DNA from: Corbicula japonica
Taxonomy: Eukaryota > Mollusca > Bivalvia > Venerida > Cyrenidae
Direction of reading: 5' to 3'
NCBI GenBank assembly: GCA_038501625.1
Contig: JAZAYU010000123.1
Location: 868,001-932,000, forward strand
Length of the DNA stretch: 64,000 nt
Both the position numbers and the translations under genes were made by a program. Shown here piece after piece: positions 1 through 62,885 of the stretch (positions are counted from its first letter, which is position 1; every line of letters begins with the position of its first letter). The notes beneath the pieces were generated by a model, which worked only from the letters and a program-made list of their open reading frames with translations, was not told where the DNA came from and made no database searches.

Positions 1-588
1 CTTATGCAGATGATTATGATGCTTACCTCTTTGGTTGCACGACGATGGGAGGGGTGTAAGAGTTAATAAAAGTTTATATGGAAATCTTTTTTTTAAAGAA
101 CATAGAAACTCGATTTGTTTCTTTTATCCGTGTCATCGTGTTTTTGCTGCTTTGACTTCAGGTACACTGTACTCCAGTCTCAGTAAGATGATTGAGTACC
201 CACCCCTGCGGCTTTTTAATGCTATTAGCTTTGTTTGATTTTATAAGTTTGTGTGCTTTTGCATGCAACATTATTCGGCAGATGGGTGGGTTGGAGTTAT
301 TTTAACACGACAACTTTTACTTGTTTTGTAATATGAGAACCTGTTACGGCAAGTGTGAGGTCGGTGCACCCTAGAACCTGGTTTAAACCCCCAAGTGGCA
401 AATTGTTTTGCTAATGACCGTTCCAAGGCGGTATCCCAAGTGTTCTCATTTTCGTAAATTGTTTGTGGCGTCTTATTTGAATTTGACATATTGAAAAATC
501 ATGCTCTCTTGTCCTCTCATCTTTTTCGCTGCGTGGAGAGGCTGTGTGTGTGAGTGTGGCGATTCCAGATATGCATATTTGATTTTTT
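1..588 (+). mobile_element. Naiad Penelope-like element, 3' end (copy 1)
   Basis: The first bases encode the last residues of a Naiad reverse transcriptase (AYLFGCTT then a short Gly/Val tail), ending in TAA at 57-59. The same end is seen in the full copy at 37925-41809. About 530 bp of 3' untranslated sequence follow and match the 3' regions of the copies at 13.05, 37.9 and 45 kb in reverse orientation. The shared terminus, on the strand reading away from the gene, is a segment with ATATGCATAT near 566-588. The rest of the element lies upstream of the window. Family assignment is firm from the coding end and the shared 3' region. Confidence 0.85.
66..114 (+). promoter_or_regulatory. SECIS-like element, Naiad copy 1 (decayed quartet)
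   Basis: This lies 7 bp after the TAA stop. The 5' quartet is ATAA instead of ATGA. It is followed by AGTTTATATGG, an apical AAA, a small hairpin (TCTTT...AAAGA), the return strand ACATAGAAACT and the 3' quartet CGAT. The AGTTT/AAACT and TATG/CATA pairs are kept although the bases differ from the other copies. The ATGA-to-ATAA change would be expected to weaken or abolish SECIS function in this copy. Confidence 0.65.
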
Positions 589-13409: not shown

Positions 13410-13606
13410 AAACTTTTAAACCCCTGCCACCGTCGTGCAACCAAAGAGGTAAGCATAATGATCTACTGTAGATGGTTTTATCACCAGGCCTGCAGAGCAC
13501 TGCAGAATATCATGTTGAAAACCTTTGATTTTGAATTTACAGATGGTTTTTACGAATAACTGGAAGAAATTAACATTTTCTTTAATTTTCTTAAGTTTAA
13601 AAACTT

Positions 13607-14055
13607 AAAAACTGGCTGTGGAATACCTTGTTGCAAAAGTGATTTTAAACTGCACCTGTATTTTTGAATTAAATCTGAGTAAAGCCGATAAAACTTGAAA
13701 AAGGTTTTCCTTAATTTATGATACCGATAACCTTGATTTAACCTTGATTTAAAAGTTTTTCTGTTATGCTAAGATTACGTTCATTGAAGTCATTATCATC
13801 ATTGCAAGCTCTAGAAAAGCGAACAAGGTTTAAAAACTGGCTGTGGAATACCTTGTTGCAAAAGTGGTTTTAAACTGCACCTGTATTTTTGAATTAAATC
13901 TGAGTAAAGCCGATAAAACTTGAAAAAGGTTTTCCTTAATTTATGATACCGATAACCTTGATTTAACCTTGATTTAAAAGTTTTTCTGTTATGCTAAGAT
14001 TACGTTCATTGAAGTCATTATCATCATTGCAAGCTCTAGAAAAGCGAACAAGCTT
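13607..14055. repeat. 225-bp tandem duplication inside Naiad copy 2
   Basis: The segment beginning AAAACTGGCTGTGGAATACC is present twice, offset by 225 bp, and almost identical. The full copy at 38-39 kb has it once. The duplication therefore arose after this copy inserted or during its integration. Confidence 0.9.
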
Positions 14056-16036
14056 TGAGATATAAACCCCGTAAGATGTTGCATGTGGCACATCGCCGTC
14101 TAAAACCGGAAAATTTCCTATATTAAAATTAAAATCATCTCTTTTATCATTTATTTTGGTAGTGACATATCCGACATGCACAATTAGTACCGATTGGAAT
14201 GCCTTTTACTTGTTTATAAATAGAGGTACCAAATCTTACATAAATATTATCCAATAAGAAGGTGAGCGCCTGGATAAGGTCTTGACAGGTCCATGAAGTG
14301 TAATTATCAAAGAACCATTCTGTAAAGAATGCTTTATGTTCATTACAAGCGTTAAACATGTTAAATGTTTTATTTTTTTCTAGCAAAAGTTGTTTTCAAT
14401 GAGACTGGTTAGTTTGTCTCTTATTAAATTATGAGGGAGAGAAGTAATTAGATTGAGAAATCATAAGTAGACAAACAGAATGCCTGACATTTATTTGATT
14501 TAAATGTCATTTGAATTTTTTATAGACCAAAATAAATATTTGCCAGTGGTTTCAAAAACTTTTTCGCAATACCATATAACATGTTTTTGTACAGCTGTAA
14601 GACAAGATGTTAAAAGCTCGGATAATTTAGTTGTTGTACAAGAACTAGAGTTTGCAATAAATCATGACCGATACATAGTAGAAAATTTATCTTCAACACT
14701 GATTCTAAATTTTGTAATTTGTAGAGTGTGTGCAGTAACAATATCACTTTCAGATGAAGAAGTTAGTGTATTATTTGAAGCCTTATCAGCAGGTATTAAA
14801 ACAAATCTGTTGTGAAAGTCTTGAAAACCTTTTTTCAAATGAGAAAGTAAAAACGAGGCCGAGATGGTAATAAAGCTATGTTTTTATAGAAGGATATACG
14901 AGTGTCAATTATTTTGGATACTTTTACCAGTTTGAAAGAGCATTAGGCTCAGCATGTTCTCGTTTACACCATTTATTGCAAAAAGAGTTTAAAGACTCTG
15001 CTATTTCTGCACGACAGGTTTTAAAGTCGATGTCCGAAGGAATTCTATATTTCGGAACATTTGAAATTAAATTGCAGATTCTAAAGTCTTTGATAACATT
15101 TAGATCCCCTGTAACTATATGACCGGCAGGTTGATAGCACAATTTTGAATTAGAACAGTCTCATGATATAGGTGTATTCTCAACAATCTGAAAATCCGAG
15201 GTAATTTTGTTGTAATTGAAAATTGTGTTTCTAATTGGCTTGTTGTATTTATCACAGACGATATGTGTTTCAGTATTATTGAAATAATTCAACAGTTTAA
15301 TCTTTAAATATACTTGGAGGGTCAATAAAATCTATACCTTTATTTAAAAATGAAATTTTAAGATAATGTCTTTGGTGATCAGATTCCAAGTCAATGTGTG
15401 GTCTGAGCACATGCCGAGTGTAACACATAGTAAGGCTAGCAACTTCATAAAGTGGGTGGGTTTGTATAACAATATCTTCGGCTTCCTTATTCACTTTCTT
15501 TAAACAAGAACTAGAAAAAGAAGAAAAACGTGAAAGCATAGCATGTCTACCAGAACGTTTTAAAATATTTTGAAGGTCATGAATAGAACAATGAACACGT
15601 GATTTTCTTTTGATGTTACCATTAGTCCTTATCCCGCGTGACCTGAATTTCGGTCTTCGTATTTCAAGCAAATCAAACATATCAAAATTAGGATTTTTTA
15701 AAATGTTGCCTTGTTGATAAATATTATCATTTAAACCAAGTGGATAAGGTGATTGTGTTTTTGTATCCAATTATGTTCCGAAATAAGCCTTGCCCTAATC
15801 TTAAATGCTCTTGAAGCACTGTTTTATCAACAGGTGGAATATTGACATGTTTTAGAGTGTGGCCTGATCGTTTGAAATGTTTATGTAAAAATGTATTGAT
15901 TTTATTATTGTTTCTTATTTTAGAACAGTGCTGACTAAAACGTGTTTTCAAAGAGGCGTCCTGTTTGTTCAACATATTGAATCCCGCAATTTAAGGCATT
16001 TCAGGTTAAAACATAAATAATATTATCCGCTTGTCA

Positions 16037-23187: not shown

Positions 23188-25215
23188 GGTTATGTATATG
23201 ATTTATTGTCAAATCTTTGTCCCTCCCTGATAATGAAACTTGAAACTTGAAACTTGAAACTTGTTTATTTTCTGAAACGCCTATTTCTACATAAACATAT
23301 TCAATGGCGTTGTACATATAGGCACACATAATTATACACAGTACATATAAGCAACACATAATTATATGTAGTTACTGAAAACAGTAAACAGTAAAAACAT
23401 AAACATAATATGAAACAACATCACAATCATAGTTTAATCAAAATTTCTACCAATATATTGAAGTAAGTGTTATACAGTGCATTCACAACACAGTCAATTT
23501 TAGGATTATCAACACTGATTCAGACTAATTCAGAAAAATCTCTAAATAAATGCGTTTTCAGTTGTTTTTTAAACGTGACCACCGATTCACTTTGTCTTAT
23601 GTTTGACACCGTTGATCATGACATTCTCATCGAAGTGTTAAACAAGCAGTATGGTGTCTGTGGTACAGCGCTGGAATGGGTAGACTCATACCTGAGACCG
23701 CGCAGCTGTTGTGTGAGGGTGGGTGAAACGGTATCAACTCCACGCAATCTGAAATGCAGCGTCCCACAAGGAAGTTGTTTAGGGCCCTGGCTCTATCTCA
23801 CCTATGTGGGAACTATTTTCGATATTGTTCCACCGTCCATTTCTATTTTTGGATTTGCTGACGATCATACAGCCAACTAAACGAAACGAAGAGAATGCAA
23901 TTCAGGAACTTTCAAATTGTGCGCGTGTAATAAATGACTGGATGAATGGTAATAAGCTCAAGATGAATTCATCTAAAACAGAGTATATAATGTTTGGTAG
24001 CCGCCAGCAACTAAGTAAATGTAAAACCAAAGAAATCGACATTTGTGGTGATAAAGTTAAAGTACAAAAGTGTATCAGATACCTAGGTGCCTTTCTCGAC
24101 GAAACACTAAATTTCAAGGAGCATGTAAAACGGAAGTGTAAATCTGCAATGTTCAATTATTTTAAAATCAAGAGAATCCGTAAATTTTTAACCAAAGAAG
24201 CAACTGAGATTTTAGTTCTGTCATTGGTGATTTCTCATTTAGATTATTGCAATGTCATTCTCTATGGTATAAGTCAGGCGGAAATCGGTAAATTGCAACG
24301 TATTCAGAATATGTGTGCCAAATTAGTACTGAACAGAAATATGCAAGATAGTTCCAAGCAGGCTTTGTATGAACTACATTGGTTACCTATTAAGGCAAGA
24401 ATAAATTTTAAAATACTTACCTACATGTATAACTGTTCTGTCGGAAATGCCCCCCAATATTTAATTGAACTTTTGTCTATTAAAGAGTTTAAACGCACCC
24501 TTCGTTCCTCAGATTCATCAGTAGGTTGCTATGCTATTCCATACAATAAGAAGAAGACATTCAGTGACAGGAGTTTTAGTACTGTAGGTCCGAAACTGTG
24601 GAATCAACAACTACCTGATAATGTCATGACCCAGTACTTTAATATTGTGATATGATGTAGAAACTTTAATGAATGTATTGTGCATGTATTGTGTTTTCCC
24701 CTTTGATCTATTTTTAACATAGACTTGTTCAGTACTGATTGAGAATGTTCTGGAACATCTAAAAAAATATAACTTGAGTAAGTATGTTACTATACAATTG
24801 ATGTTTGTAGAAATTGACAGAATTTTCTAAAGAGAGATTTTCAAGAACTTTCCAGAACATTTAATTTTACTATATAAAGGAAAGCTTGCTAAATCCGTTG
24901 TTCACTAGATTGGTTCACTATATTTTTACCAGATTTAAATAGTCAGTGGGGATTACTTCAACTTCTCTGGAAATTATTTTATTCTTGCTTTTAAAGACTT
25001 CAAGTGTGGATTTAATTTTGTGAGAGTGAAACACCAGGATCAGTGAAGACATTATTCTGAACTTTAAAATTTAACTTTATTTGGACTTAATTTGACAGGT
25101 ACTATTTGATATTGTTTGTAAACCTTCATCTTTCATACTGTTGTAAAATAAATTTTGTTAATTGTTTAGTGTTTGTTGCTCGGTTCTTCTTTCTAGTTAC
25201 GCCTGGCTCGTAACA
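23188..25215 (+). repeat. 3' LTR of the Gmr1-like element, split by a LINE
   Basis: Positions 23188-23235 and 24614-25215 together match the 5' LTR. The break carries a 10-bp duplication, CCTGATAATG, at 23226-23235 and 24614-24623. The TATA and AATAAA signals lie in the second part. The first base is G rather than T in this copy. Confidence 0.85.
23236..24613. mobile_element. CR1-like LINE insertion with inverted 5' part
   Basis: The left part (23236 to about 23600) reads on the minus strand as the end of a CR1-like RT (VTFKKQLKTHLFRDF, then stop), a 3' UTR and a terminal (CAAGTTT)n tail. The right part (about 23601-24613) reads on the plus strand as the preceding RT region, from FDTVDHDIL through VPQGSCLGP and FADD to GPKLWNQQLPDN. 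The two parts meet head to head and cover adjacent stretches of one protein, with little or no sequence lost. A 10-bp target duplication flanks the whole, so this is one insertion event. Confidence 0.85.
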
Positions 25216-26261: not shown

Positions 26262-28066
26262 ATAGCTTTTAGCTTGGCATTATTATCTGAACTTGCATTA
26301 TCATCATATCACACCATCAATGAATCACTCAGTTCTTGCCATGTACCAACAGAGTTTAAAAGTGCTGTTATAAGACCTCTTCTGAGGAAACCGGACTTAG
26401 ACACTAATGTACTGAAAAACTACAAACCCGTTTCTAACCTCCCTTTTATATCAAAGGTTTTAGAAAAAAGTTGTAGATAAACGTATCGGTGACCATCTAG
26501 TTGGGAACAGCTTACACGAACCACATCAATCGGCATATAGGAAACTTCATTCTACAGAAACAGCCTTGCTCAAAGTACATAACGATATTCTTCAGTCACT
26601 TGACAACAACTGTGTCACTGTTCTTGTGTTGCTCGATCTGTCAGCAGCTTTCGATACGATAGATCATACCACATTACTGAGCCGTTTAGAAAACCACTAT
26701 GGAATCAAAGATAACGCCCTTTCCTGGATATCAGGGTACCTTCATGGTAGACAACAAACTGTTCGTGTTGAAGGAGAGCTATCCGATCCAGTTACTATGA
26801 ATTTCGGTGTTCCACAGGGATCCGTATTAGGACCGAAATACTTTACGATGTATACCAAGCCAGTAGGTGCTATCTGTGGTAAACATGGTCTAGTGCATCA
26901 TTTTTATGCTGATGATTCACAACTGTACATTTCATTTAAACCCATCGACATTGTGTCCAAATCTGAAGCAATAAACCGCGTAGAGTACTGTCTAACGGAA
27001 ATCATTATGTGGATGAATAGAAACATGCTAAAACTGAATGCTGAGAAAACAGAAGTGATGTTGTTTTCTTCCAAAAATAATCTCAAACATGTCGAAAACA
27101 TGACTATCACGGTTGGTGAGACATCTATTTTATCTTCAAATGACAGCATCAGAAATCTTGGCGCTCACTTCACGCCACAAATTAACATGGAGAAACACGT
27201 CAACACTGTCTGTAGATCTGCCTACCACCAGCTGAGAAACATCGGACGCATACGGAAATACCTTACAACCGATGCTACAAAAACATTAGTTAATTGTCTA
27301 GTAACATCAAAGCTTGACTATTGTAATTCGTTGCTCTTCGGTATACCAAAACTGACAATGAATAAACTACAACGGGTTCAGAACACAGGTGCCAGAATCA
27401 TCACAAAAACTCCTCGTCATGACCATATAACACCAGTGCTCAAGGAACTTCATTGGCTATCAATATGTCAACGGATCGATTACAAGGTCCTACTATACAC
27501 TTACAAGGCTCTCCATGGACAGTGCCCACAGTACATAATTGACTTATTGTGTGTGTACCGACCAGCTAGAGACCTTCGTTCTAGCAGTTATTTAACACTT
27601 GTAGTACCACGTACCAGAACTGTGACTTTCGGAAACCGTAGCTTTAGCCATGCTGCACCAAGGTTATGGAACGCACTGCCAGAGTCAGTTAGAAACGCCC
27701 AGACACTTAACGCTTTCAAAAGACAACTAAAAACACACCTTTTCCGCTCCTACTATGTTGATTAACTGGATATATTAACAATCATAAGACGTTGGGTTGA
27801 TTTTGAACGGAAAGTGATGCTATAATGTGTTATCTACACATCACTTGTTTTTTAACTTTCTACTATGTTTTTCATGCAAACATTTTTTTCCAAGTTTTAT
27901 TTTTTATTTCTTTTATTTATTTTTTTTCTAAATTTTATTTGCCCGTGCTTCATTAATTCCTATTGTATTATATTGCTATATCTTGCTTGTTGTAAAGCAC
28001 TTTTGAACAAATGAAAAGAGTGCTATATAAATCTGGTAAATAAATAAAAATAAATTAATAAATAAA
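26262..28066 (+). mobile_element. CR1-like LINE, 5'-truncated
   Basis: A non-LTR RT fragment. The first frame (to about 26475) has FKSAVIRPLLRKPDLD and NYKPVSNLPFISKVLEK. After a one-base shift, a 399-codon frame (26566-27765) carries LLDLSAAFDTIDH, GVPQGSVLGP and the catalytic YADD (FYADDSQLY), then the characteristic C-terminal block ending FKRQLKTHLFRSYY. The endonuclease is missing. A 3' UTR and an (AAAT)n-like tail follow to about 28066. The frameshift and truncation make it non-autonomous. Confidence 0.85.
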
Positions 28067-37924: not shown

Positions 37925-38398
37925 AAAAAAAGCAACATATGCATATCAGGAATCGCCACACTCAAAAAACACAGCCTCCCCACGCAGCGAAAAAGAAGAG
38001 AGGAAGATAGAGAGAGCGCATGTTTTATATATGTATGTCAATTCAAATAGGACGCCACAAACAATTAATAAACAAGAGAACCTTTGGGGATACCGCCTTG
38101 GAACGGTCAGTGGCAAAACAAATTGCCACTGGGGGTTTAAACCAGGTTCTAGGGTGCACCAACCTCACACTTGCCCCAACAGGTTCTCGTATCACAAAAC
38201 AAGTACAAATTGTCTTGGTGAAATAACTCCAACCCACCCATCAGCTCAACAATGTTGCATGCAAAAGCATACAAACATATAAACATAAGAATTTAATAGC
38301 ATTGCAAAGCCAAAGGGCGGGTACTCAATGATCTTTCCGAGACCAGAGCACCTGGAGTAAAATCAGCAAGAACACGATGACAGGGATAAAAGAAACAA

Positions 38399-38447
38399 AT
38401 CGAGCTTTTAGGTTCTTTTAAGAAAAGATTTCCCCATAAACTTTCAT
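38399..38447 (-). promoter_or_regulatory. SECIS-like element, Naiad copy 3
   Basis: On the minus strand, 6 bp after the TAA: ATGA quartet, A, AGTTTATGGGG stem strand, apical AAA, small hairpin TCTTTTC...AAAAGA, return strand CCTAAAAGCT, then CGAT. This is the layout of a form-2 SECIS: 5' AUGA, a helix II of about 10 pairs, AAA in the apical region, helix III and a 3' NGAN quartet. A weak helix I can form from TAAGAG and TTTCTTTTA. Helix II tolerates one A-A mismatch. Confidence 0.8.
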
Positions 38448-38453
38448 AAACTC

Positions 38454-41400
38454 TTACACCCCTGCCACCGTCGTGCAACCAAAGAGGTAAGCATAATGAT
38501 CAACTGTAGATGGGTTAATCACCAGGCCTGCAGAGCGCTGTAAAATATCATGTTGGTAACCTTTCTTTTTAAATTTACAGATGGTTTTTACGAATAACCG
38601 GGAGAAATTAACATCGCCTTTTATCTTCTTAAGTTTATAAATTAAATCTCCATAAAAAACTGGCTGTGAAATTCCTTGTTGCAATAGTGATTTTAAACTG
38701 CAGCTGTATTTATGAATTAGATCTGGATATCGGCGATAAAACTTGCAAAAGGTTTTCCTTAATTTGTGATACCGATAACCTTGTTTTAAAAGTTTTTCTG
38801 TAATGCAAAGATTACGTTCATTGAAATCATTCACATCGTTGCAAGCTCTTGAAAAGCGAACAAGCTGTGAGATATAAACCCCGTAAGAAGTTGCACGAGG
38901 AACATCGCCGTCTAGAAACGGAAAATTTACTATATTAAAATTAAAATCATCTCTTTTATCATAAATTTTAGTAGTGACGTAACCATTTTCGATGGATAGA
39001 TTTAAATCAAGGAAGTTTGCTTGCTTTTCTGAAGTGTTCGCTTTGTTAAGCTGTAGTTCTTTAGGATAAATCTTATTAACCAGTGATGGAAAATGGTTAT
39101 TATCTATATTTAATAAATCATCAAGGTACCTCGAGGTGTTGTTAAAAGCTGTAATAATATCATCTTGATGTTCGGTAGAAAGAGATAACATGAAATCTCT
39201 TTCATAACAGTATAAAAACAGATCAGCAACAAGGGGTGCACAATTAGTACCCATTGGAATGCCTATTACTTGTTTATAAATAGAGGTACCAAATCTCAAA
39301 TAAATATTATCCAATAAAAATGTGAGCGCCTGGATAAGGTCTTGACAGGTCCATGAAGTATAATTATCATAAGAACCATCTGTAAAGAATGCCCTATGTT
39401 CATTACAAGCAATAAATGTTTTATTTTCTCTAGCAAAAGTTTTTTCAATGAGACTGGTTAGCTTGTCTCTTATTAAATTATGAGGGAGAGAAGTATACAA
39501 GGTAGAAAAATCATATGTAGACAAACAGAACGCCTGAAAATTATTTGATTTAAGTTTCTTCAAAACGTCATTTGAATTTTTTATAGACCAAAATAAATTT
39601 TTGCCAGTAGTTTCAAAAACTTTTTCGCAATACCTAATTACATGTTCTTTTATAGCTGTAAGACAAGATGTTAAGAGCACGGATAACTTTGTTGTAGTAC
39701 AAGAACTAGAGTTAGCGATAAATCTTGCTTTGTACGGTGTTTTGTGCATTTTAGGCAACCAATACATAGTAGGTACTTTGTCTTGTTTAGGCTCAACACT
39801 GATTCTAAATTTTGTAATTTGTAGAGTGTGTGCAGTAACAATATCACTCTCAGATGAAGAAGTCAGTGTATAAGCATTAGTGCTATTAAGCTCTTCAGTT
39901 TGAACATTTATATAGTGTATACGTCACACTATAATAACATTATTTGAAGCCTTATCAGCAGGTGTTAAAACAAATTTGTTGTGAAAATCTTGAATACCTT
40001 TTTTCAAATGACGAAAGTTAAAACGAGGTCGAGGTGGTAGTAAAGCTATGTTTCTTTTATAGAAGGATATACGAGTGTCAATTATTTTGAATATTTGTTT
40101 TTTCCAGTTTGAAAGAGCATTAGGCTCAGCATGTTCTCGTTTACACCATTTATTGCAAAAAGAGTTTAAAGACTCTGCAATTTCCGCACGACAGGTATTA
40201 AAGTCGATGTCCGATGGAATTCTGTATTTTGGACCTTTTGAAATTAAATTGCGGATTCTAAAGTCTTTGATAACATTTAGATCCCCTGTAACGATATGAC
40301 CGGCAGGTTGATAGCAAAATTTTGAATTAGAACAGTCTCAAGATAATGGTGTGTTTTCAACAATCTGTAAATCCGAGGTAATTTTGTTGTAATTGAAAAT
40401 TGTGTTTCTAATAGGCTTGTTATATTTATAACAAACGATGGGTGTTTCAGTATTCTTGAAATAATTAGGTATAGCCGATTCAACAGTTTTATCTTTAAAT
40501 ATACTTGGAAGGTCAATAAAATCTATGCCTTTATTTAAAAATGAAATTTTAAGGAAATGTCTTTGGTGATCAGATTCCAAGTCAATATGTGGTCTTAGAA
40601 CATGCCGAGTGTAACACTGAGTAAGGCTTGCAACCTCATAAAGTGGATGAGTTCTAATAACAATATCATCGGCTTCCTTATCCACTTTTTGTAAACTTGA
40701 AATAGAAAGAGAAGCTAAACGCGACAGCATAGCATGTCTTCCAGAATGTTTTAAAATATTTTGAAGGTCATGAATAGAACAATGAACACGTGATTTTCTT
40801 TTGATGTTACCATTAGTCCTTATCCCATGTGACCTCGATTTTCGTTTTCGTATTTGAAGCAATCCAAAAATGTCAAAATCAGGGTTTTTTGAAATGTTGC
40901 CTTCTTGATAAATATTATCATTTAAACCAAGTGGATAAGGAGTTTGTAGTTTTTTTATCCAATTATCTTCTGAAACAAGTCTTGCTCTAATTTTAAATGC
41001 TCTTGAAGCACTGTTATCAAATATAATTTTTTCCACAGGTTGAATACTAACGTGTTTTAAAGTGTGGCCTGATTGTTTAAAATGTTTATATAAATATGTA
41101 TTGATTTTATTATTGTTTCGTATTTTAGAACAGTGCTGACTAAAACGTGTTTTTAAAGGGCGTCCCGTCTGTCCTACATATTGAATGCCACAATTTAAAG
41201 CGTTTCAAGTTAAAACATAAATTATATTATCTGTTTGTCAATCAATATCTGAATTAATATTTACTGAAAAAGTTCTTCCATTAACAGTTGATTTTATAGT
41301 CGAGCTACATTTTAAAAAACTACAGCACCTACACCTCTTTAAATTACACTTGTATATAAAAGGATACGATCTGCGTCTTCCGTCGTTTAGTTTTATAGGC

Positions 41401-41684
41401 GTGGAAATGTTATATTTTTTAAGAATATGAGATTTGATAGGTGACAATTTTATTTTTAAATTATTTTTAAATAAATGGGTACATTGTGCACTTTGCAAAC
41501 CGGTCACATTGACGGAAGTAGCCGAAGATAAATTTATTGGAGATAAACAAATTGACGGTTGCATGTATTTGAAAGTATTTAATTTAGCCGGAATATGGAC
41601 AGAAGACGCAGAAGATAGCCTGGGAGTTAAAATGTTTCCTTTTATTTTAAACGCCATGATTATTTTGTTTGAAAAAAATACCAT
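38454..41684 (-). CDS. Naiad polyprotein: GIY-YIG endonuclease plus RT, with four in-frame TGA (Sec)
   Basis: One frame of 1,076 codons, ATG at 41684 and TAA at 38454, is interrupted only by TGA at 41238-41240, 41205-41207, 40338-40340 and 39924-39926 (codons 149, 160, 449, 587). These replace residues that are Cys in related proteins as I remember them. Codons 149 and 160 precede the GIY-YIG core, 449 is the first position of the CxC linker motif (U-D-C), and 587 lies in ADKASNNVIIV-U. The N-terminus has a Cys cluster (KRCRCCSFLKC). Endonuclease: GIQYVGQT (166-173), R/H, E239 in EDNWI, N255 in PLGLN. RT: STYDFSTLY near 725, GIPMGTNCAP near 810, YLDD 853-856. It would cut DNA and prime reverse transcription. 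Translation needs selenocysteine insertion via the 3' SECIS. Confidence 0.88.
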
Positions 41685-41835
41685 TATATGATTAGCGACC
41701 TTCAGTCATATCGCAAGTTTTTAAGTGACGTCACCATGCAATACATGACGTAAATGTTTGCGCGCTTATGGTTTTTTCTATAAATAGCACGCAGAACAAT
41801 CTAAAATGAATGAAGATAATGTTAATGTTTACAGT

Positions 41836-43072
41836 TCATTGTTTTTCCAATTTTAATTTACACCACCGAGCATAATGACTTGAGTCGTTAGAGAAGAAAA
41901 CAAACTGTTGTTCTCCTAGTCTCGATTTAGCTCTCTCTACCACGGTGTCGGGGTCATACACATGGTAGTCGGGTGATGCGTACTCTAACTTGAAGCAATA
42001 TCCATCAAAATTAATCTTATATTCCTCCGTTTGTATTGTTCTGTGTGAAAACAATCCACAAAAAGCATAGTGGGCAATATGACATTTCACAAACTTGGTC
42101 TGGGTATCTGTGATTTCTAGCACAACGGCTTCGTGCCATAAGTTGTAGTAGCTGTATCTGATGATGTCGCCTATTTGTACATCCTCTGCTGCCTCGATAG
42201 GGATCGCACTAACACTCAACAGCTTCTTATTCATTTCATAACACTGTTCACAAATGATTTCGTTCTCGAACTCCTTTTTGTTTCTTTCCTGTTCATCGCG
42301 GATCCCAAGAAATCCACTTGTAATAAACAACCGAGCTGTCAGTCTGAACTTAGAAACCTGAATACTGAACTTTACGCCAGTAACACAGTAGGTTGCGAAG
42401 TGTTCGCAGTTGTTGTCAAACAAATCATATTTGTACCCGTCATCTGTACCTTCTGCAAACCTCTTCGCCCGTTTAGAGACTTCAGACTTTGGGAAAAACC
42501 GTCGCCTGTATACAACCACCCATATTTTCTGCTTTGAAAAATCGAATGTTTTGTCCGAGCTTGTTATTCTAGCTTTTCGGCCTAAAAACAAACCTATCGT
42601 TACTCCTGAAAAAGTATTCGTCGCTTCAACAATCCTAAATATCTCGTCATTAGACCTTTTTTTCCACTACAATTGCGTGGTGGTCATAAACAGCGCCAGC
42701 AAATACAATATGGTCACCTTCTTCTATTTCATCAGCTGAAAATACGGGAACAGCTTTTACACATTCTATACAGCCGCATATTTGCGAAATATTGCCAGGA
42801 TCAAACGATGAACCACTGTCATTAAGAAGCGATGCGCTTAAATTAGCATCATCAGCCGCCTCTTCATCTTTTTGTTCACATATCGTCTTTTCGTCAGGAA
42901 CTACTTGTAGAGTCGAACCGTCAACGGTAGTTTTACGTTGAAGTGTTTTTCTTATCGAATCGAACGATGGTGCTCGCTGTAGCATATCGGGGTCCAGTAA
43001 AGAACTTCTCTGAAAAGCTGGACTAGATGAAGATATGGATAAATTCGGGGAGGCCTCTGGTTTAGATTGCAT
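41836..43072 (-). pseudogene. LRAT-domain gene, copy 1, frameshifted
   Basis: This encodes the same protein as 51043-52248 but has one extra T in a T7 run near 42655-42662, which splits the frame between residues equivalent to IVV and the following strand. First LRAT domain: GDHIVFAGAVYDHHAIVV, then DNNCEHFATYCVTG with the catalytic Cys. Second: GDIIRYSYYNLWHEAVV, then FFSNDSSHYARWC. The first ATG of the paralogue is ATA here, so translation would start six codons later-equivalent (43072). An acceptor (TTTTTTCCTAG) precedes the exon. A sequencing error in the homopolymer could mimic the shift. Confidence 0.8.
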
Positions 43073-43089
43073 GTTTGCAGTGTTTATCT

Positions 43090-51042: not shown

Positions 51043-52248
51043 TCATTGTTTTTCCAGTTTCAATTTACACCACCGAGCATAATGACTTGAGTCGTTGGAG
51101 AAGAAAACAAACTGTTGCTCTCCTAGTCTCGATTTAGCTCTCTCTACAACAGTGTCGGGGTCATATACATGGTAGTCGGGTGATGCGTACTCTAACTTGC
51201 TGCATTGTCCATCAAACTTAATCTTATATTCCTCCGCTTGTATTATTCTGTGTGAAAGCAATCCACAAAAAGCATAGTGGGCAATACGACATTTCACAAA
51301 CTTGCTCTGGGTGTCTGTTATTTCTAGCACAACTGATTCGTGCCATAAGTTGTAGTAGCTATATCTAATGATATCACCTACTTGTACATCCTTTGCTGCC
51401 TGGATAGGGGTCGCAGTAACACTGAACAGCTTCTTATTCATTTCGTAGCACTGTTCACAAACGATTTTGGTCTCGAACTCCTTTTCGTTTCTTTTCTTTT
51501 CATCGTTGATTCCAACAAATCCACTTGTAATAAACAATCCAGCTGTGAGTCTAAACTTAGTAACCTGAATACTGAACTTTTTGCCAGTAACACAGTATGT
51601 TGCAAAGTGTTCGCAGTTGTTTTCAAACAGATCATATTTGTACTTGAAGTCTGTACATTCTGCTAATGTTCTTGCCCGTTTAGAGACCTCAGACTTTGAA
51701 TACAACCGTCGCCTGTATACAACCACCCATATTTTCTGCTTTGAACGATCGAATAGTTTGTCCGAGCATGTTATTCTAGCTTTTTGACCTACAAACAAAC
51801 CCACCGTAACTCCTGACAAAGTATTCGTCGCTTTAACAATCCTAAATGTCTTGCCATCTGACACTTTTCCCACTATAATTGCGTGGTGGTCATAAACAGC
51901 GCCAGCAAATACAATATGGTCACCTTCTTCTATTTCATCAGCCGAAAATACAGGAACAGCTTTTACAGATTCTATACAGCCGCCTATTTGCGAAATATTG
52001 CCAGGATCAAACGATGGACCACTGTCATTTAGAAGCAACGCGCTTAAATTAGCATCATCAGCCGCCTCTTCATCTTTTTGTTCAAATATCGTCTTTATAC
52101 CAGGAACTGGAGTCCAACCGACAACAGTAGTTCGACGTCTAAGGGTTTCTATTGCTCGTGGACAACTTCTTTGTATAGGAGATTCAGACGACGACATGGT
52201 TAAGTCCGGGGAAGCCTTTGGTTTAGACTGCAAGTTTGCCGTGTTCAT
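51043..52248 (-). CDS. LRAT-domain protein with two LRAT-like domains (intact copy 2)
   Basis: An open single-exon frame of 401 codons. The ATG directly follows an acceptor (TTTTTCCCAG), so a non-coding leader exon lies upstream. Residues ~1-95 are Ser/Glu/Asp-rich. Domain 1 (about 105-225) has GDHIVFAGAVYDHHAIIV and NNCEHFATYCVTG, which supply the His and nucleophilic Cys of the LRAT/HRASLS (NlpC/P60-like) fold. Domain 2 (about 295-400) has GDIIRYSYYNLWHESVVLEI but NDSSHYARWC where NCEHF is expected, so the nucleophile is lost. The family comprises thiol acyltransferases and phospholipases acting on lipids. Activity of domain 1 is inferred from motifs. No N-terminal signal or membrane anchor is evident. 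Confidence 0.85.
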   Translation of the reverse strand: MNTANLQSKPKASPDLTMSSSESPIQRSCPRAIETLRRRTTVVGWTPVPGIKTIFEQKDEEAADDANLSALLLNDSGPSFDPGNISQIGGCIESVKAVPVFSADEIEEGDHIVFAGAVYDHHAIIVGKVSDGKTFRIVKATNTLSGVTVGLFVGQKARITCSDKLFDRSKQKIWVVVYRRRLYSKSEVSKRARTLAECTDFKYKYDLFENNCEHFATYCVTGKKFSIQVTKFRLTAGLFITSGFVGINDEKKRNEKEFETKIVCEQCYEMNKKLFSVTATPIQAAKDVQVGDIIRYSYYNLWHESVVLEITDTQSKFVKCRIAHYAFCGLLSHRIIQAEEYKIKFDGQCSKLEYASPDYHVYDPDTVVERAKSRLGEQQFVFFSNDSSHYARWCKLKLEKQ

Positions 52249-52261
52249 CTGGGAAAAATGA

Positions 52262-53330
52262 TACTAATACAAATAATTTCGTCTTGGGCAAATTTTACTA
52301 TTATAAGGATACATACGTTTTAATTATGTGACAACTACTTACATACGTTTTAATTAAGTGACAACCATTTAATCTCATTTTAACTCTTATGCAACAGATG
52401 CAAAGAAATTAGTATGGACAGTCTCAAAGTTTAAGAGTTCCCCAAAAATCCACTTTAGAGGTCTGATAATCATTACAAAAAGTAAACTAATAATTATTTT
52501 GAACATGTACAAATCAAATACTTTGTAAATTTTGTTTTAGTGGTTCACACTTAACACTTTTCGTTGGAGATCTATTATACACATGAACTGTCACTTAATG
52601 TGACCACAATGGGTCGGTAAAATAATTATGTTTAATGCAAGATATCTGGGAATACTAGCATTGCAAATGAAGTTTGTTACATAAAATCGATGTAACATAG
52701 TACTTCTAAACTGTAAAAATTAAGTTGATAATGACAGTTAAAATATATACAAATCATAATCAAAAGTAAACGTATAAACAAAGTTATTTTTTTATTATTC
52801 TTATTGTCCAATAAAAGTAAACAAGATGAAATTAAATTGAAGTCCTAATAAGAAACATTGCGAGTTGTTGTGCAAACCGTTACCAAAATACATGGAAATT
52901 AGAACAAATTAGGCAGCGAGGGCAGTTACATGTATATGCATTTCCATTACTGCCCATGAACAGGCTCAATCAAACCGAGCTGAATACTTCCATATGAACG
53001 TATCTTATAATAAAACACATTAATTATCTAGAAAAGTGATATAGCGAAATCGATAATTTTGAAAATATTTGTTCATGTTTAATTCATTTGTATCCAAAAA
53101 TTAGAAATACTTGACTTGGTGGAGAGATAGTAAGACATATACCTAAATTTTTATTTGATCGTTCTGAGGAATATTCCATCAAATTTCAAACTGACTTACC
53201 TCATTTCCATTTTGCTGAGAGAGCGTCGGTGGTTTGTCAACTACTAGAACAGATAAAAACAAATTTAAATGAACTGTTACATACCACTTTTGAGAGACTC
53301 AGTACAAAAGTGAAACGCATCAAGGTTGTG
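52262..53330. other. Probable intron or upstream region of LRAT copy 2
   Basis: Parts match 43560-43750. A short dispersed-repeat module (GCATTTCCATTACTGCCCAT) lies at 52930-52990. No exon was recognised. Confidence 0.5.
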
Positions 53331-57971: not shown

Positions 57972-57984
57972 TGAACACGGTCTA
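57972..57984 (+). promoter_or_regulatory. Self-complementary primer-binding site
   Basis: TGAACACGGTCTA starts at the first base after the LTR and is the exact reverse complement of TAGACCGTGTTCA at 57916-57928, two bases after the predicted transcript start. Pairing extends one base into the LTR (14 pairs). It does not start with TGG, so it does not match a tRNA CCA end. Confidence 0.85.
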
Positions 57985-57995
57985 AGGAAACAGCC

Positions 57996-60900
57996 ATGCC
58001 AGAGGTAGACTGCCCGATTCCTGGCTGCGACTACAGGACGCCGTACCTCGAAGCAGCAATAGTGGCCGCTCTCATTACAGCACACAGCACCACCCACACT
58101 GCACCAACCACTGCCGCAAAGGTTGAAAAAGTTAAGAGACCTACTATCTCCGCCGCGAGCTCAAGTGAGGAATGGTCCTACTTTGAAACTAGGTGGTTAG
58201 ACTATGTGGATGCAACCAAATTAACAGGTCGAGATAGAGTTGTACAGCTTCTCGAATGTTGTGATGAACCACTCAGAAAGGACCTCACACGTTCTGCGGG
58301 AGGAAGCCTCACCAACAAGAGAGAAGAAGATGTATTGGCTGCAATCAAGAAACTTGCTGTTCGTGAAGAAAACACAATGGTAGCTAGAGTAACACTTCAC
58401 AACATGCGCCAAGACCGTGATGAACCAGTGCGTAGTTTTGGCGCTCGTCTACGAGGCCAAGCTGGCGTGTGCAAATTTCTTATAAACTGCCCAAATTGTG
58501 ACTCTGATGTCAACTATACTGACGCAATCCTACGTGATGTATTAACTCGTGGCATTGCAGATCATGAAATACAATTAGATCTTCTAGGTGACAAGAATCA
58601 AGACATGGGCCTTGAGGATGTATTCCGGTTTGTAGAGGCAAAAGAAGCAGGTAAACGGTCTGCCTCTCGTCTACTAGATTCACACGCTGTAGAAGTTGCA
58701 AGCAGTTCCTACAGGAAGTCGAAACAGTCCACACTGAAGGACAAGCAGGACTCATGCTCATACTGTGGAAAAAAAGGTCATGGCAAGAAAGCTTCAGCAC
58801 TCATTCGCAAAAAAGAATGCCCTGCCTATGGTCATAGATGTTGCTACTGTAACAGAGACCACCACATGGAGAGTGTATGCCGCAGTAAAGACAACCCTAA
58901 GCCAGTGCGAAATCCTCATTCATCAGACAATGACTGTGAAGGTGCTGTCTTTAATGCGCTATGTTCAGTTCATTCCAGCGAAGAGAAGTGCGAGACTGGT
59001 TCATATGCATTTGAGACATTATGTACTATAAATGACTCTGGACGATCGTTACAATGCAAGACTATCTGCCTAGAACATCACATATACGATGGCCTAAAGG
59101 ACACATGGGTCAAGCATATTTCAAGGCCGCAGCCATTTATAAATGTCACAATTCAGGCTGTAAGTGAAGATTATACTGCCCTTGGGTTCAACTTACGCCA
59201 AAGCTCTAACCCTGTCATCATACCTGCAATGGCAGACACTGGATGCCAAAGTTGTCTAGCTGGACTCAAAGTGATACATCGCCTTGGACTAAGTCAAACT
59301 GACCTCATTCCAGTAACCATGAAGATGCACACAGCCAACAATGAAGGAATACGGATTCTTGGTGCTGTGGTCCTTCGCTTAACAGGCACAAACAAGGTCG
59401 GACAGAGACTGGAAACAAGACAGATCACTTATGTAACTGACATGTCTGACAAATTATTTCTGAGCAGAGAGGCATGTGTTTCACTAGGCATAATACCTGA
59501 AAACTTCCCTGTTATTGGTACAGCAGTTCAAGGCCTAGGCAAGGACTGTGACAAAATTGATGGCCTTCAGGATGATAATCATTTAATCGCTCCATGTGGA
59601 TGTCACAAGCGCCAATTCCCACCACCGCCACCACAACATCTACCATATCCCGCAACAGACTCCAACAGGGAAATGCTACAGCAGTACCTCCTTGATTATT
59701 ATAAATTCAGCACATTCAACACATGTGAGCACCAACAAATCCCACTTATGGATGGCCCACCTATGAAACTGTTAATAGACCAAAATGCAACTCCAGTTGC
59801 TCATCACAAACCTGTGCCTGTACCACTTAACTGGCAAGAGGCTGTGAAAGCTGGACTTGATCAAGATGTGAGACTGGGTGTTATTGAACCTGTGCCAATA
59901 GGTGAGCCAGTCACATGGTGCCATCGAATGATTGTGTGTCCCAAAAAGGATGGTAAACCCAGACGAACTGTAGACTTTCAATCGCTGAATAAGCATGCCA
60001 AACGCGAAACACATCACACTCAGTCACCATTTCATCAAGCAAGGTCAGTGCCACATGGTACCAAGAAGACTGTCTTCGATGCATGGAATGGATATCACAG
60101 TGTACCCATCTGCGAGGAAGATCGCCACCTTACCACGTTTATCACACCTTGGGGGCGTTACCGCTACAAGACTGCACCACAGGGTTATATTGCTTCAGGT
60201 GATGGCTATACCAGACGTTACGATGAGATTGTTGCTCACATACCAAATCACACCAAATGTGTTGATGACGTTCTGCTTTGGGCTGACACAATGGAAGATA
60301 ACTTCTTTCAAGCAGTTGAATGGTTGGACATTTGTGGTCGTCGTGGAATCACCCTTAACCCAAGTAAATTTGCATTTGGTCAGGACACAGTGGAATTTGC
60401 TGGTTTTGAAATAACACCAAACAGCGTCCGGCCTTGTCAAAAGTATATCCATGCCATTCTGGACTTTCCGACACCAAAGGATATCACTGATGTCCGGTCT
60501 TGGTTTGGCCTTGTGAATCAGGTGTCTTACACATTCAGCATGGCGGAGAGAATGCTGCCATTCAGAGAGCTGCTCAAACCAGGTACCAAATTTCATTGGG
60601 ATGAACAACTACAAACAGTGTTTGATGAATCCAAGTTAAAAATTGCGAAAGAGATTGAGCAGGGTGTTCAGATCTTTGACCCAAAAAGACCGACCTGCCT
60701 AGCAACCGATTGGTCTAAGTCTGGCATTGGTTTTTGGTTGCTTCAGAAACACTGCAAGTGTTCAGACATACACCCACTATGCTGCAAAACTGGATGGAAG
60801 GTAACACTAGTAGGAAGCCGTTTCACGCACGCCGCTGAATCACGATATGCACCCATTGAAGGAGAGGCACTAGCAGTGGCAGATGCATTAGACAAAGCTC

Positions 60901-62885
60901 GCTACTTCGTCTTAGGTTGTCATGACCTCGTAGTCGCAGTTGATCATAAGCCACTGTTGAAGATATTTGGGGATAGATCCTTGCAAGATATATCAAACAC
61001 ACGGTTGAGGAACTTGAAGGAAAAGACTCTGCGTTATCAATTTCGGATGATACATGTGCCTGGTATTCGTCATCGAGCTGCTGACTGTGTTTCCCGCCAT
61101 CCCACTGGTTCCGCAGAGAAATTGTCCCTACCAGATGACATAGCTAGCATAGACTCGCCATTACTTAGCCCGGCACTGCTTGATGGCTTACGACTGCCTC
61201 CTCCATCAACTACTGATACAGAAGACACTGTGGTGATTTCAGCTACAGCTGCACTTGAATCTTTAGATTTGCAATCGGTAACCTGGGAACGAGTCAGAAC
61301 AGCTACATCAAGTGATGACACCATGTCAATCCTCGTTGATCTCGTAGAAAGTGGGCTTCCGGAGTCAAGATGCGACTTTCCTGAATGCATACGTGAATAC
61401 TATCAGTTCCGAGAAGGTCTTCATACCATCGATGGAGTTGTGCTGTACAATGATCGCGTTGTTGTACCTCCCTCCCTTAGAGGACATGTGTTGTCATCAT
61501 TACACGCAGCTCATCAAGGGGTCACTTCAATGGTTGCTAGAGCAGAAGCGTCTGTCTTCTGGCCTGGCATCACTCCAGCTATTATTGATACTAGAGCACA
61601 GTGCAATTATTGCAATCGCATTGCTCCATCAAATCCGTCAGCCCCACCCACTCCATTGACATCACCGGACTATCCGTTTCAATGTGTTTGTGCTGATTAT
61701 TTTCACTACAAGGGTGTGAACTACCTAGTCGTTGTTGACCGTTATTCCAACTGGCCTGTCGTGGAAAAATCATCAAATGGTTCACAGGGACTGATTAGTT
61801 GTCTGCGACGCATATTTGTCACATTTGGTATTCCGGACGAGCTTGCTTCTGATGGTGGGCCTGAATTCACTGCCACAGCAACACGACGTTTTCTCCAAGA
61901 TTGGGGTGTTCACCACAGACTGTCATCAGTGGCATTTCCACACAGTAACTGTCGTGCCGAGATTGGTGTCAAAACAGTCAAGCGCCTAATTGCAGATAAC
62001 ACAGGTCAGAACGGAGACCTTAATACAGACGCTTTTCAAAGGGCAATGCTACAATACCGCAACACACCAGATAGGGACACTAAACTCTCTCCGGCTATGT
62101 GTGTGTTTGGACGTCCTATCCGGGACTTCATACCAATCCCTCCTGGACACTACAAACCTCATGACACATGGAAACAAACAATGCTAGCCAGAGAAGAGGC
62201 TTTGAGAAATCGTCACATGAAGGATGCTGAACGCCTTTCTGAACACACCAAACGGCTACCTTTCCTAGTAGTTGGTGATCATGTTCGTGTCCAGAATCAG
62301 ACAGGGCCATATCCGTTGAAATGGGACAAGACGGGCAAAGTGATAGAGGTTCGCCAATTTGATCAGTATGTTATTAAAATTGATGGCTCCGGCAGGGTGA
62401 CCTTGCGCAACCGTAAATTCCTTCGGAAATACATTCCAGTAAAAAACCATCTGCCAAGCGTAACAATAGACGCAGACCTTGCAGTCTGTAAACCACCTGT
62501 ACCGGCTACTCCAGTTAATCAGGTGGTAATTCCTACAAAAAGTAACCGGATTACTAGTCCTGATGTAATGCTACATACTGAACCAGCTACCCCAGAGGCA
62601 CAAGGGATACAGCCTCAGACGTCGCAGACACCAAGAAAATCTAGTTCATCCCCCAACTCCACTCAGATTCAAATTCCTGAGCGTAAACGTCTGTTTCCAG
62701 ATTCAACTCCTGGATGTACACCAGGCATGCTTACAGAAGCTCCGTTAGTTCCTCCAGTGGCGTCACGACAACCAGAAATAAACCCCACTGCTCCACCTTT
62801 ACGGTCCCCGGAACCAACAAATGAACTTCGACGCACAACTAGGTCTCGAGTTAAACCGGCTTGGCATTCAGATTTTGTGATGTGA
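57996..62885 (+). CDS. Gag-Pol polyprotein of the LTR retrotransposon
   Basis: 1,629 codons in a single frame. N-terminal C2H2-like finger (CPIPGCDY...HSTTH, residues 5-33); gag (about 45-230); Cys/His knuckles ([12 protein letters not shown]..., [14 protein letters not shown], about 251-295); aspartic protease ADTGCQSC (about 413); RT with [27 protein letters not shown] and CVDDVLLW (catalytic about 754-757); RNase [13 protein letters not shown] (about 902) and [12 protein letters not shown]; integrase with H-H-C-C (HAAHQG, CNYCNR), D in CADYF (~1234), D in SDGGPEF (~1286), E in RAEIGVK (~1321); [13 protein letters not shown] module (~1438). No chromodomain and no env. The C-terminus is Pro/Ser/Thr-rich. 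All catalytic residues are present. Confidence 0.93.

Follow-up and report, generated by a model that had tools for sequence, protein, structure and literature searches.

Naiads are Penelope-like elements (PLEs) in which a GIY-YIG endonuclease lies N-terminal to the reverse transcriptase (RT), the linker carries a CxC motif, and the endonuclease contains a CCHH set. Naiads are not known to carry a hammerhead ribozyme. Members with several selenocysteine (Sec) residues were reportedly described from clams and spiders by Craig, Yushenova, Rodriguez and Arkhipova in 2021 (Mol Biol Evol 38:5005); in the literature searched, no paper combines selenocysteine with Penelope-like elements. Sec is costly, and its use is usually limited to redox enzymes. 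Selenoprotein P has 10 Sec residues and two SECIS elements (PMC8266573). The element examined here would resemble selenoprotein P in that UGA decoding would be directed by a 3′ SECIS; unlike selenoprotein P, it encodes a retrotransposon enzyme, and its single SECIS-like element begins at the stop codon.

This element lies in a 64,000-nucleotide stretch of DNA from the bivalve Corbicula japonica, called the window below. Its coding frame contains four TGA codons (149, 160, 449 and 587), which, judged by sequence comparison, are very probably decoded as Sec in a Naiad-type PLE. The assignment to Naiads fits their description as given above. Multi-Sec Naiads having reportedly been described already, the family would be a further member of that class, and its most useful additions are the mixture of Sec and Cys within one genome and the SECIS-like element at the stop codon. 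The features of the element are as follows.

37926..41806, minus strand: retroelement copy of 3881 bp, 5′-truncated in its 5′ UTR (from flank comparison)
38454..41657, minus strand: coding frame from codon 10 to TAA, comprising endonuclease, CxC linker and RT (start from ATG conservation across copies)
41238..41240, minus strand: TGA codon 149, probable Sec; aligned with a Cys of canonical PLE endonucleases
41205..41207, minus strand: TGA at codon 160, probably Sec; stands at the first Cys position of the endonuclease C-C-H-H set
41076..41225, minus strand: GIY-YIG endonuclease core, codons 154-203 (PF01541)
40338..40340, minus strand: TGA at codon 449, probably Sec; occupies position 1 of the CxC motif (here U-D-C), where four other copies read TGT
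39924..39926, minus strand: TGA at codon 587, probably Sec; within NNVIIVU, where the RT part begins, Cys counterpart not found
39111..39605, minus strand: RT, matched codons 694-858 (RVT_1 and BLASTP)
38388..38455, minus strand: SECIS-like element with AUGA core, AAA and CGAU, whose first bases lie within the TAA stop (Rfam SECIS_1, pattern, copies)

The earlier note, made from the letters alone, had claimed a frame with exactly four internal stops, all TGA, without a frameshift and with a terminal TAA. Re-translation of the minus strand from 41684 to 38454 bore this out: there are 1076 codons followed by TAA, the four TGA codons are the only internal stops, and no frameshift occurs. The plus strand of the same stretch is not open and has many stops in the one frame tried. 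The length of 1076 codons stands as a description of the open frame, while the true start is probably not codon 1 but codon 10, the ATG at 41657, because diverged copies miss one to three bases in codons 1-9 yet keep this ATG.

In all, the permuted domain order, the CxC linker, the CCHH set, a PLE-related RT and tandem copies were found, in agreement with the Naiad label that the frame had been given. From the N-terminus, the order is GIY-YIG, linker with U-x-C, and RT; the canonical PLE at locus L032 of the same genome has the reverse order. For PF01541 the cut-off is 22.6 bits; the isolated domain scores 29.0, and the whole protein falls just short with 22.0. A structural model of the endonuclease (five sequences) has a mean pLDDT of 77, and its best solved match in Foldseek is I-TevI at E 0.012, with none below 0.001. 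RVT_1 matches weakly (E 0.034), reaching 14.3 bits where the cut-off is 29.6, and BLASTP links the RT to the canonical PLE RT of L032 at E 1e-11. A sequence search of the PDB gave no matches up to E 1.

Several canonical Penelope-like families, with a C-terminal endonuclease, are present in the same genome (L032-L037). The element is like them (L032-L036) in its homologous RT and in its Cys/His pattern, and its endonuclease is homologous to theirs with 28-39% identity in four loci. It is unlike them in that their RT comes first and their endonuclease second, and in that their codons at positions 149 and 160 specify Cys and are not TGA. The likeness to Naiads, by the same description, extends over the N-terminal GIY-YIG domain, the CxC linker, the C-terminal RT, the tandem pseudo-LTR copies and the multi-Sec protein. 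Hammerhead motifs were found neither in the window (Rfam) nor, up to E 10, in six loci; the 5′ UTR of L029-L031 and of the window copy is incomplete. The copies share 122 nt before the frame and about 528 nt after it. Other copies extend up to about 309 nt farther in the 5′ direction, and two tandem copies in L011 are spaced by 4190 bp; the window copy is therefore truncated in its 5′ UTR. At further loci the 3′ end of another copy lies upstream, which is a tandem or pseudo-LTR arrangement.

The earlier note had also placed the four TGA codons where related proteins have Cys. This is upheld for codons 149, 160 and 449; for codon 587 no Cys counterpart was found, and TGA is present in all nine further copies that can be aligned there. 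Six canonical Penelope-like loci were fetched (L032-L037), five of which entered the Cys alignment and four the C-C-H-H alignment; L032, L034 and L037 are nearly one element, so that about four independent families are represented. At codons 149 and 160, all five loci have an aligned Cys. Two sets emerge from the four-locus alignment, one of Cys at codons 113, 118, 121 and 149 and one of C-C-H-H at codons 160, 165, 201 and 207; U160, C165, H201 and H207 are aligned with C, C, H and H in every locus. By this pattern, the two Cys/His sets of the endonuclease are probable zinc knuckles.

For codon 449, the evidence comes from the family itself. When the genome was searched with codons 425-545, which cover the CxC linker, 150 matches were scored out of 4204 candidates; a single TGA lies within 145 of them and two within one, and four have none. 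In the 146 TGA-carrying matches, the TGA was counted anywhere within codons 425-545. In each of the four stop-free matches codon 449 is TGT (Cys), and the surrounding residues read SCDCANS. The search for Cys-codon homologues that had been proposed succeeded at this codon as it did at 149 and 160, and the U-x-C form of the CxC motif, previously said to be directly readable, is indeed U-D-C at codons 449-451 and C-D-C in the four copies. One of these, L042, has TGA at 149, 160 and 587, which means that copies with three Sec and one Cys would coexist with four-Sec copies; the other three have TGA at 587 and are unreadable at 149 and 160. L042 was counted to about codon 917 and L043 from about codon 205, limits that were judged by gaps and stops; codons 149 (CGG) and 160 (CAA) of L043 lie outside its homologous range and were excluded. 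The 3′ part of L042 (G000:C59) past about codon 917 seems non-homologous to the element.

Conservation of the TGA codons was followed in an alignment of 25 copies, namely the window copy and L009-L031, with L011 contributing two; L008, which is the second L011 copy, and L001-L007, whose loci are counted under other ids, were left out. Across four sites and 25 copies, TGA occupies 99 of 100 cells. Codons 149, 160 and 449 are TGA in 25/25 copies and codon 587 in 24/25, with TAA in L016. TGC or TGT occurs in none of the 25 at these codons, and the selenoprotein claim of the earlier note withstands this tabulation. The other condition set for a refutation, random stops elsewhere at a similar rate, does not refute it either: a set of 22 copies has 11 other stops in nine copies (six TAA, one TAG, four TGA), nearly all of them private, each seen once save a TAA at codon 265 that is common to two copies. 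One TAA in the 22-copy set falls at codon 73. L029-L031 have no stops beyond the four TGA sites; they differ from the window copy by 134-171 bases, and divergence within the aligned copies reaches about 5%. The window copy is to all appearances a recent insertion, because it differs from L009, L010 and L012 by a single base in 3231.

A genome-wide search, in which 43 of 36276 first-look candidates were scored, gave at least four TGA codons in 42 and three in one; exactly four TGA and no other stop were present in 24 of the 43. For the other 19, the positions of extra stops were read solely where the candidate also belongs to the 22-copy alignment. Among ten further copies, codon 587 is TGA in nine, the tenth being unaligned there, and codons 149 and 160 are both TGA in two. 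Over the endonuclease stretch the remaining eight gave a poor alignment or almost none (at best 77 of 117 bases in one, reading AGA and GGC), and these are taken as truncated copies. Outside the genome, tblastn against phages gave no matches to the element, viral contigs gave no pattern matches, and none of 12 pattern matches in prokaryote contigs was confirmed.

Selection on the protein is apparent from dN/dS, which is 0.10-0.17 between the window copy and six diverged copies. Six other pairs gave 0.13, 0.13, 0.18, 0.22, 0.27 and 0.89; the two highest values (2 of 12 pairs) are both between young copies, and each member of the 0.89 pair has extra stops, as expected for decay after insertion. 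For the part past the last TGA, four pairs were tested and gave dN/dS of 0.04-0.10; between the window copy and L031, this part has 24 synonymous differences at 310 sites against nine nonsynonymous ones at 1157 (p 1.8e-10). The part behind all four TGA codons is thus selected as protein. For some shorter segments between TGA codons, single pairs are not significant. A selenoprotein is expected to conserve its in-frame UGA and to show coding constraint both before and after it, and this is what the family displays.

If the TGA codons are decoded as Sec, the hairpin at 38388-38455 is in all likelihood the SECIS. Its strand and its place at the stop codon are as a SECIS requires, and its Rfam SECIS_1 score of 19.4 bits falls short of the gathering score, which is 35. 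Its E value is 0.47 in 531 nt with all 4227 families, or by division about 1e-4 for SECIS_1 alone. Up to E 10 the 3′ UTR contains no second SECIS_1 match, and the whole window has no Rfam match at gathering score. A joint search of six diverged loci yielded no SECIS_1 match at E<=10; at that search size a 19.4-bit match would itself exceed E 10. The helix of the window copy has ten pairs, nine of them standard, and a pattern made of core, AAA and helix occurs at the 3′ end of 25/25 copies. This pattern was loosened to fit after a first version had missed the element, and the control is therefore post hoc: it matched anywhere in 11 of 2000 shuffled 3′ UTRs, and within the first 30 nt in none of another 2000. 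On both strands of the window it has six start positions, two at the ends of family copies and four elsewhere; it also matches one place in L014 unrelated to the element and misses one old fragment. The SECIS-like element at the stop codon had been overlooked in the first reading of the sequence.

Three older relatives within the same 64 kb, likewise overlooked in that reading, represent different stages of SECIS decay.

13419..16036, minus strand: older broken relative with TGA at 149, 160 and 449, the 587 region deleted, and a SECIS-like element after its TAA
44981..45600, minus strand: older 3′ fragment with a degraded SECIS-like element (6/10 helix pairs in the register used)
7..588, plus strand: older 3′ fragment with ATAA for ATGA in the SECIS core (9/10 helix pairs)

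The broken relative has 83-88% nucleotide identity per aligned piece and keeps TGA at its three surviving sites. When ten SECIS-like sequences were compared, eight had 9 or 10 of 10 pairs. The old fragment with the ATAA core has a two-sided change from G-C to T-A and retains 9/10 pairs; another old fragment has 6/10.

Because many copies are 99-100% identical, TGA codons common to young copies alone would be weak proof, and the same near-identity would suit a pseudogenised element whose stops arose in one master copy and were spread by an enzyme supplied in trans. The constraint past the last TGA, with dN/dS of 0.04-0.10 in four pairs, largely refutes such a master copy. It would also have had to acquire four stops that are all TGA and that stand at Cys positions wherever this is testable, and these are kept both in copies diverged by about 5% and in the older relative; we consider the explanation highly improbable. 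Decay of a dead copy was rejected on the ground that selection persists past the last TGA. The sequence reveals a TGA and not the residue inserted, which leaves room for another residue through a reassigned code, tryptophan insertion, RNA editing or plain readthrough. Against this, four copies have Cys (TGT), not Trp, at codon 449, and relatives have Cys at 149 and 160; the frame has six Trp, all with the ordinary codon and invariant in seven representatives, and the frame of the neighbouring gene terminates in TGA. Plain readthrough four times over would yield almost no protein. A residue other than Sec is accordingly very improbable, and a reassigned code or Trp was rejected in view of the Cys in relatives.

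A further variant overlaps with Sec decoding and concerns the hairpin alone: the TGA codons would be Sec, with another element of the roughly 500-nt 3′ UTR acting as the SECIS. The subthreshold Rfam score speaks for it, as do the one mismatch and the G-U pairs of the helix and its degradation in two old fragments. It is nevertheless unlikely, given that core, AAA and helix are retained in all 25 copies, that one old fragment has changed both sides of a pair, and that the rest of the 3′ UTR has no SECIS_1 match at E values up to 10.

With Sec decoding as the preferred reading, a single protein would comprise an N-terminal GIY-YIG endonuclease, a CxC linker and a C-terminal telomerase-like RT. 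Host SBP2, eEFSec and tRNA-Sec would read all four UGA codons as Sec, and one SECIS hairpin, beginning at the TAA stop, would guide all four insertions. Sec 149 and Sec 160 may replace Cys ligands of the two probable zinc knuckles, where zinc binding is predicted, and Sec 449 would take the place of the leading Cys in the CxC motif. With its GIY-YIG domain the full-length enzyme would cut the target, and at the cut it would reverse transcribe its own RNA; recent mobility may have proceeded via target-primed reverse transcription. If this is true, a repeated retrotransposon whose enzyme contains four Sec would compete for the selenium machinery of its host, which could in turn control it. Copies with TGA and copies with TGT, present side by side, would be natural variants of one enzyme, and why Sec is used rather than Cys would become directly testable. 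More doubtful, and offered tentatively, is the wider picture of a selfish element that switches between Sec and Cys in one genome, with its SECIS at the stop codon, Sec as zinc ligands and transposition tied to the selenium status of the host.

The element begins 29 nt past the TGA of a gene frame that ends at 41836, and a paralogous gene at 51043-52263 provides an uninterrupted version of the insertion site. A short TTCAT at both ends of the element is compatible with a small target-site duplication. The two gene regions, 41836-43087 and 51043-52263 (both minus strand), are closely similar, with 89% nucleotide identity over 1124 bases; as a guess, their family is putatively LRAT-like.

GIY-YIG candidates are numerous in the genome: 146 of 150 scored pass E 0.001 (536 in a first look). 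The window also holds other apparent retroelements. An open frame of 1636 aa at 57975-62885 (plus strand) resembles, by eye, an LTR-retrotransposon polyprotein, and the frames at 23783-24655 and 26464-27765 (plus strand) resemble, also by eye, the RT of non-LTR retrotransposons.
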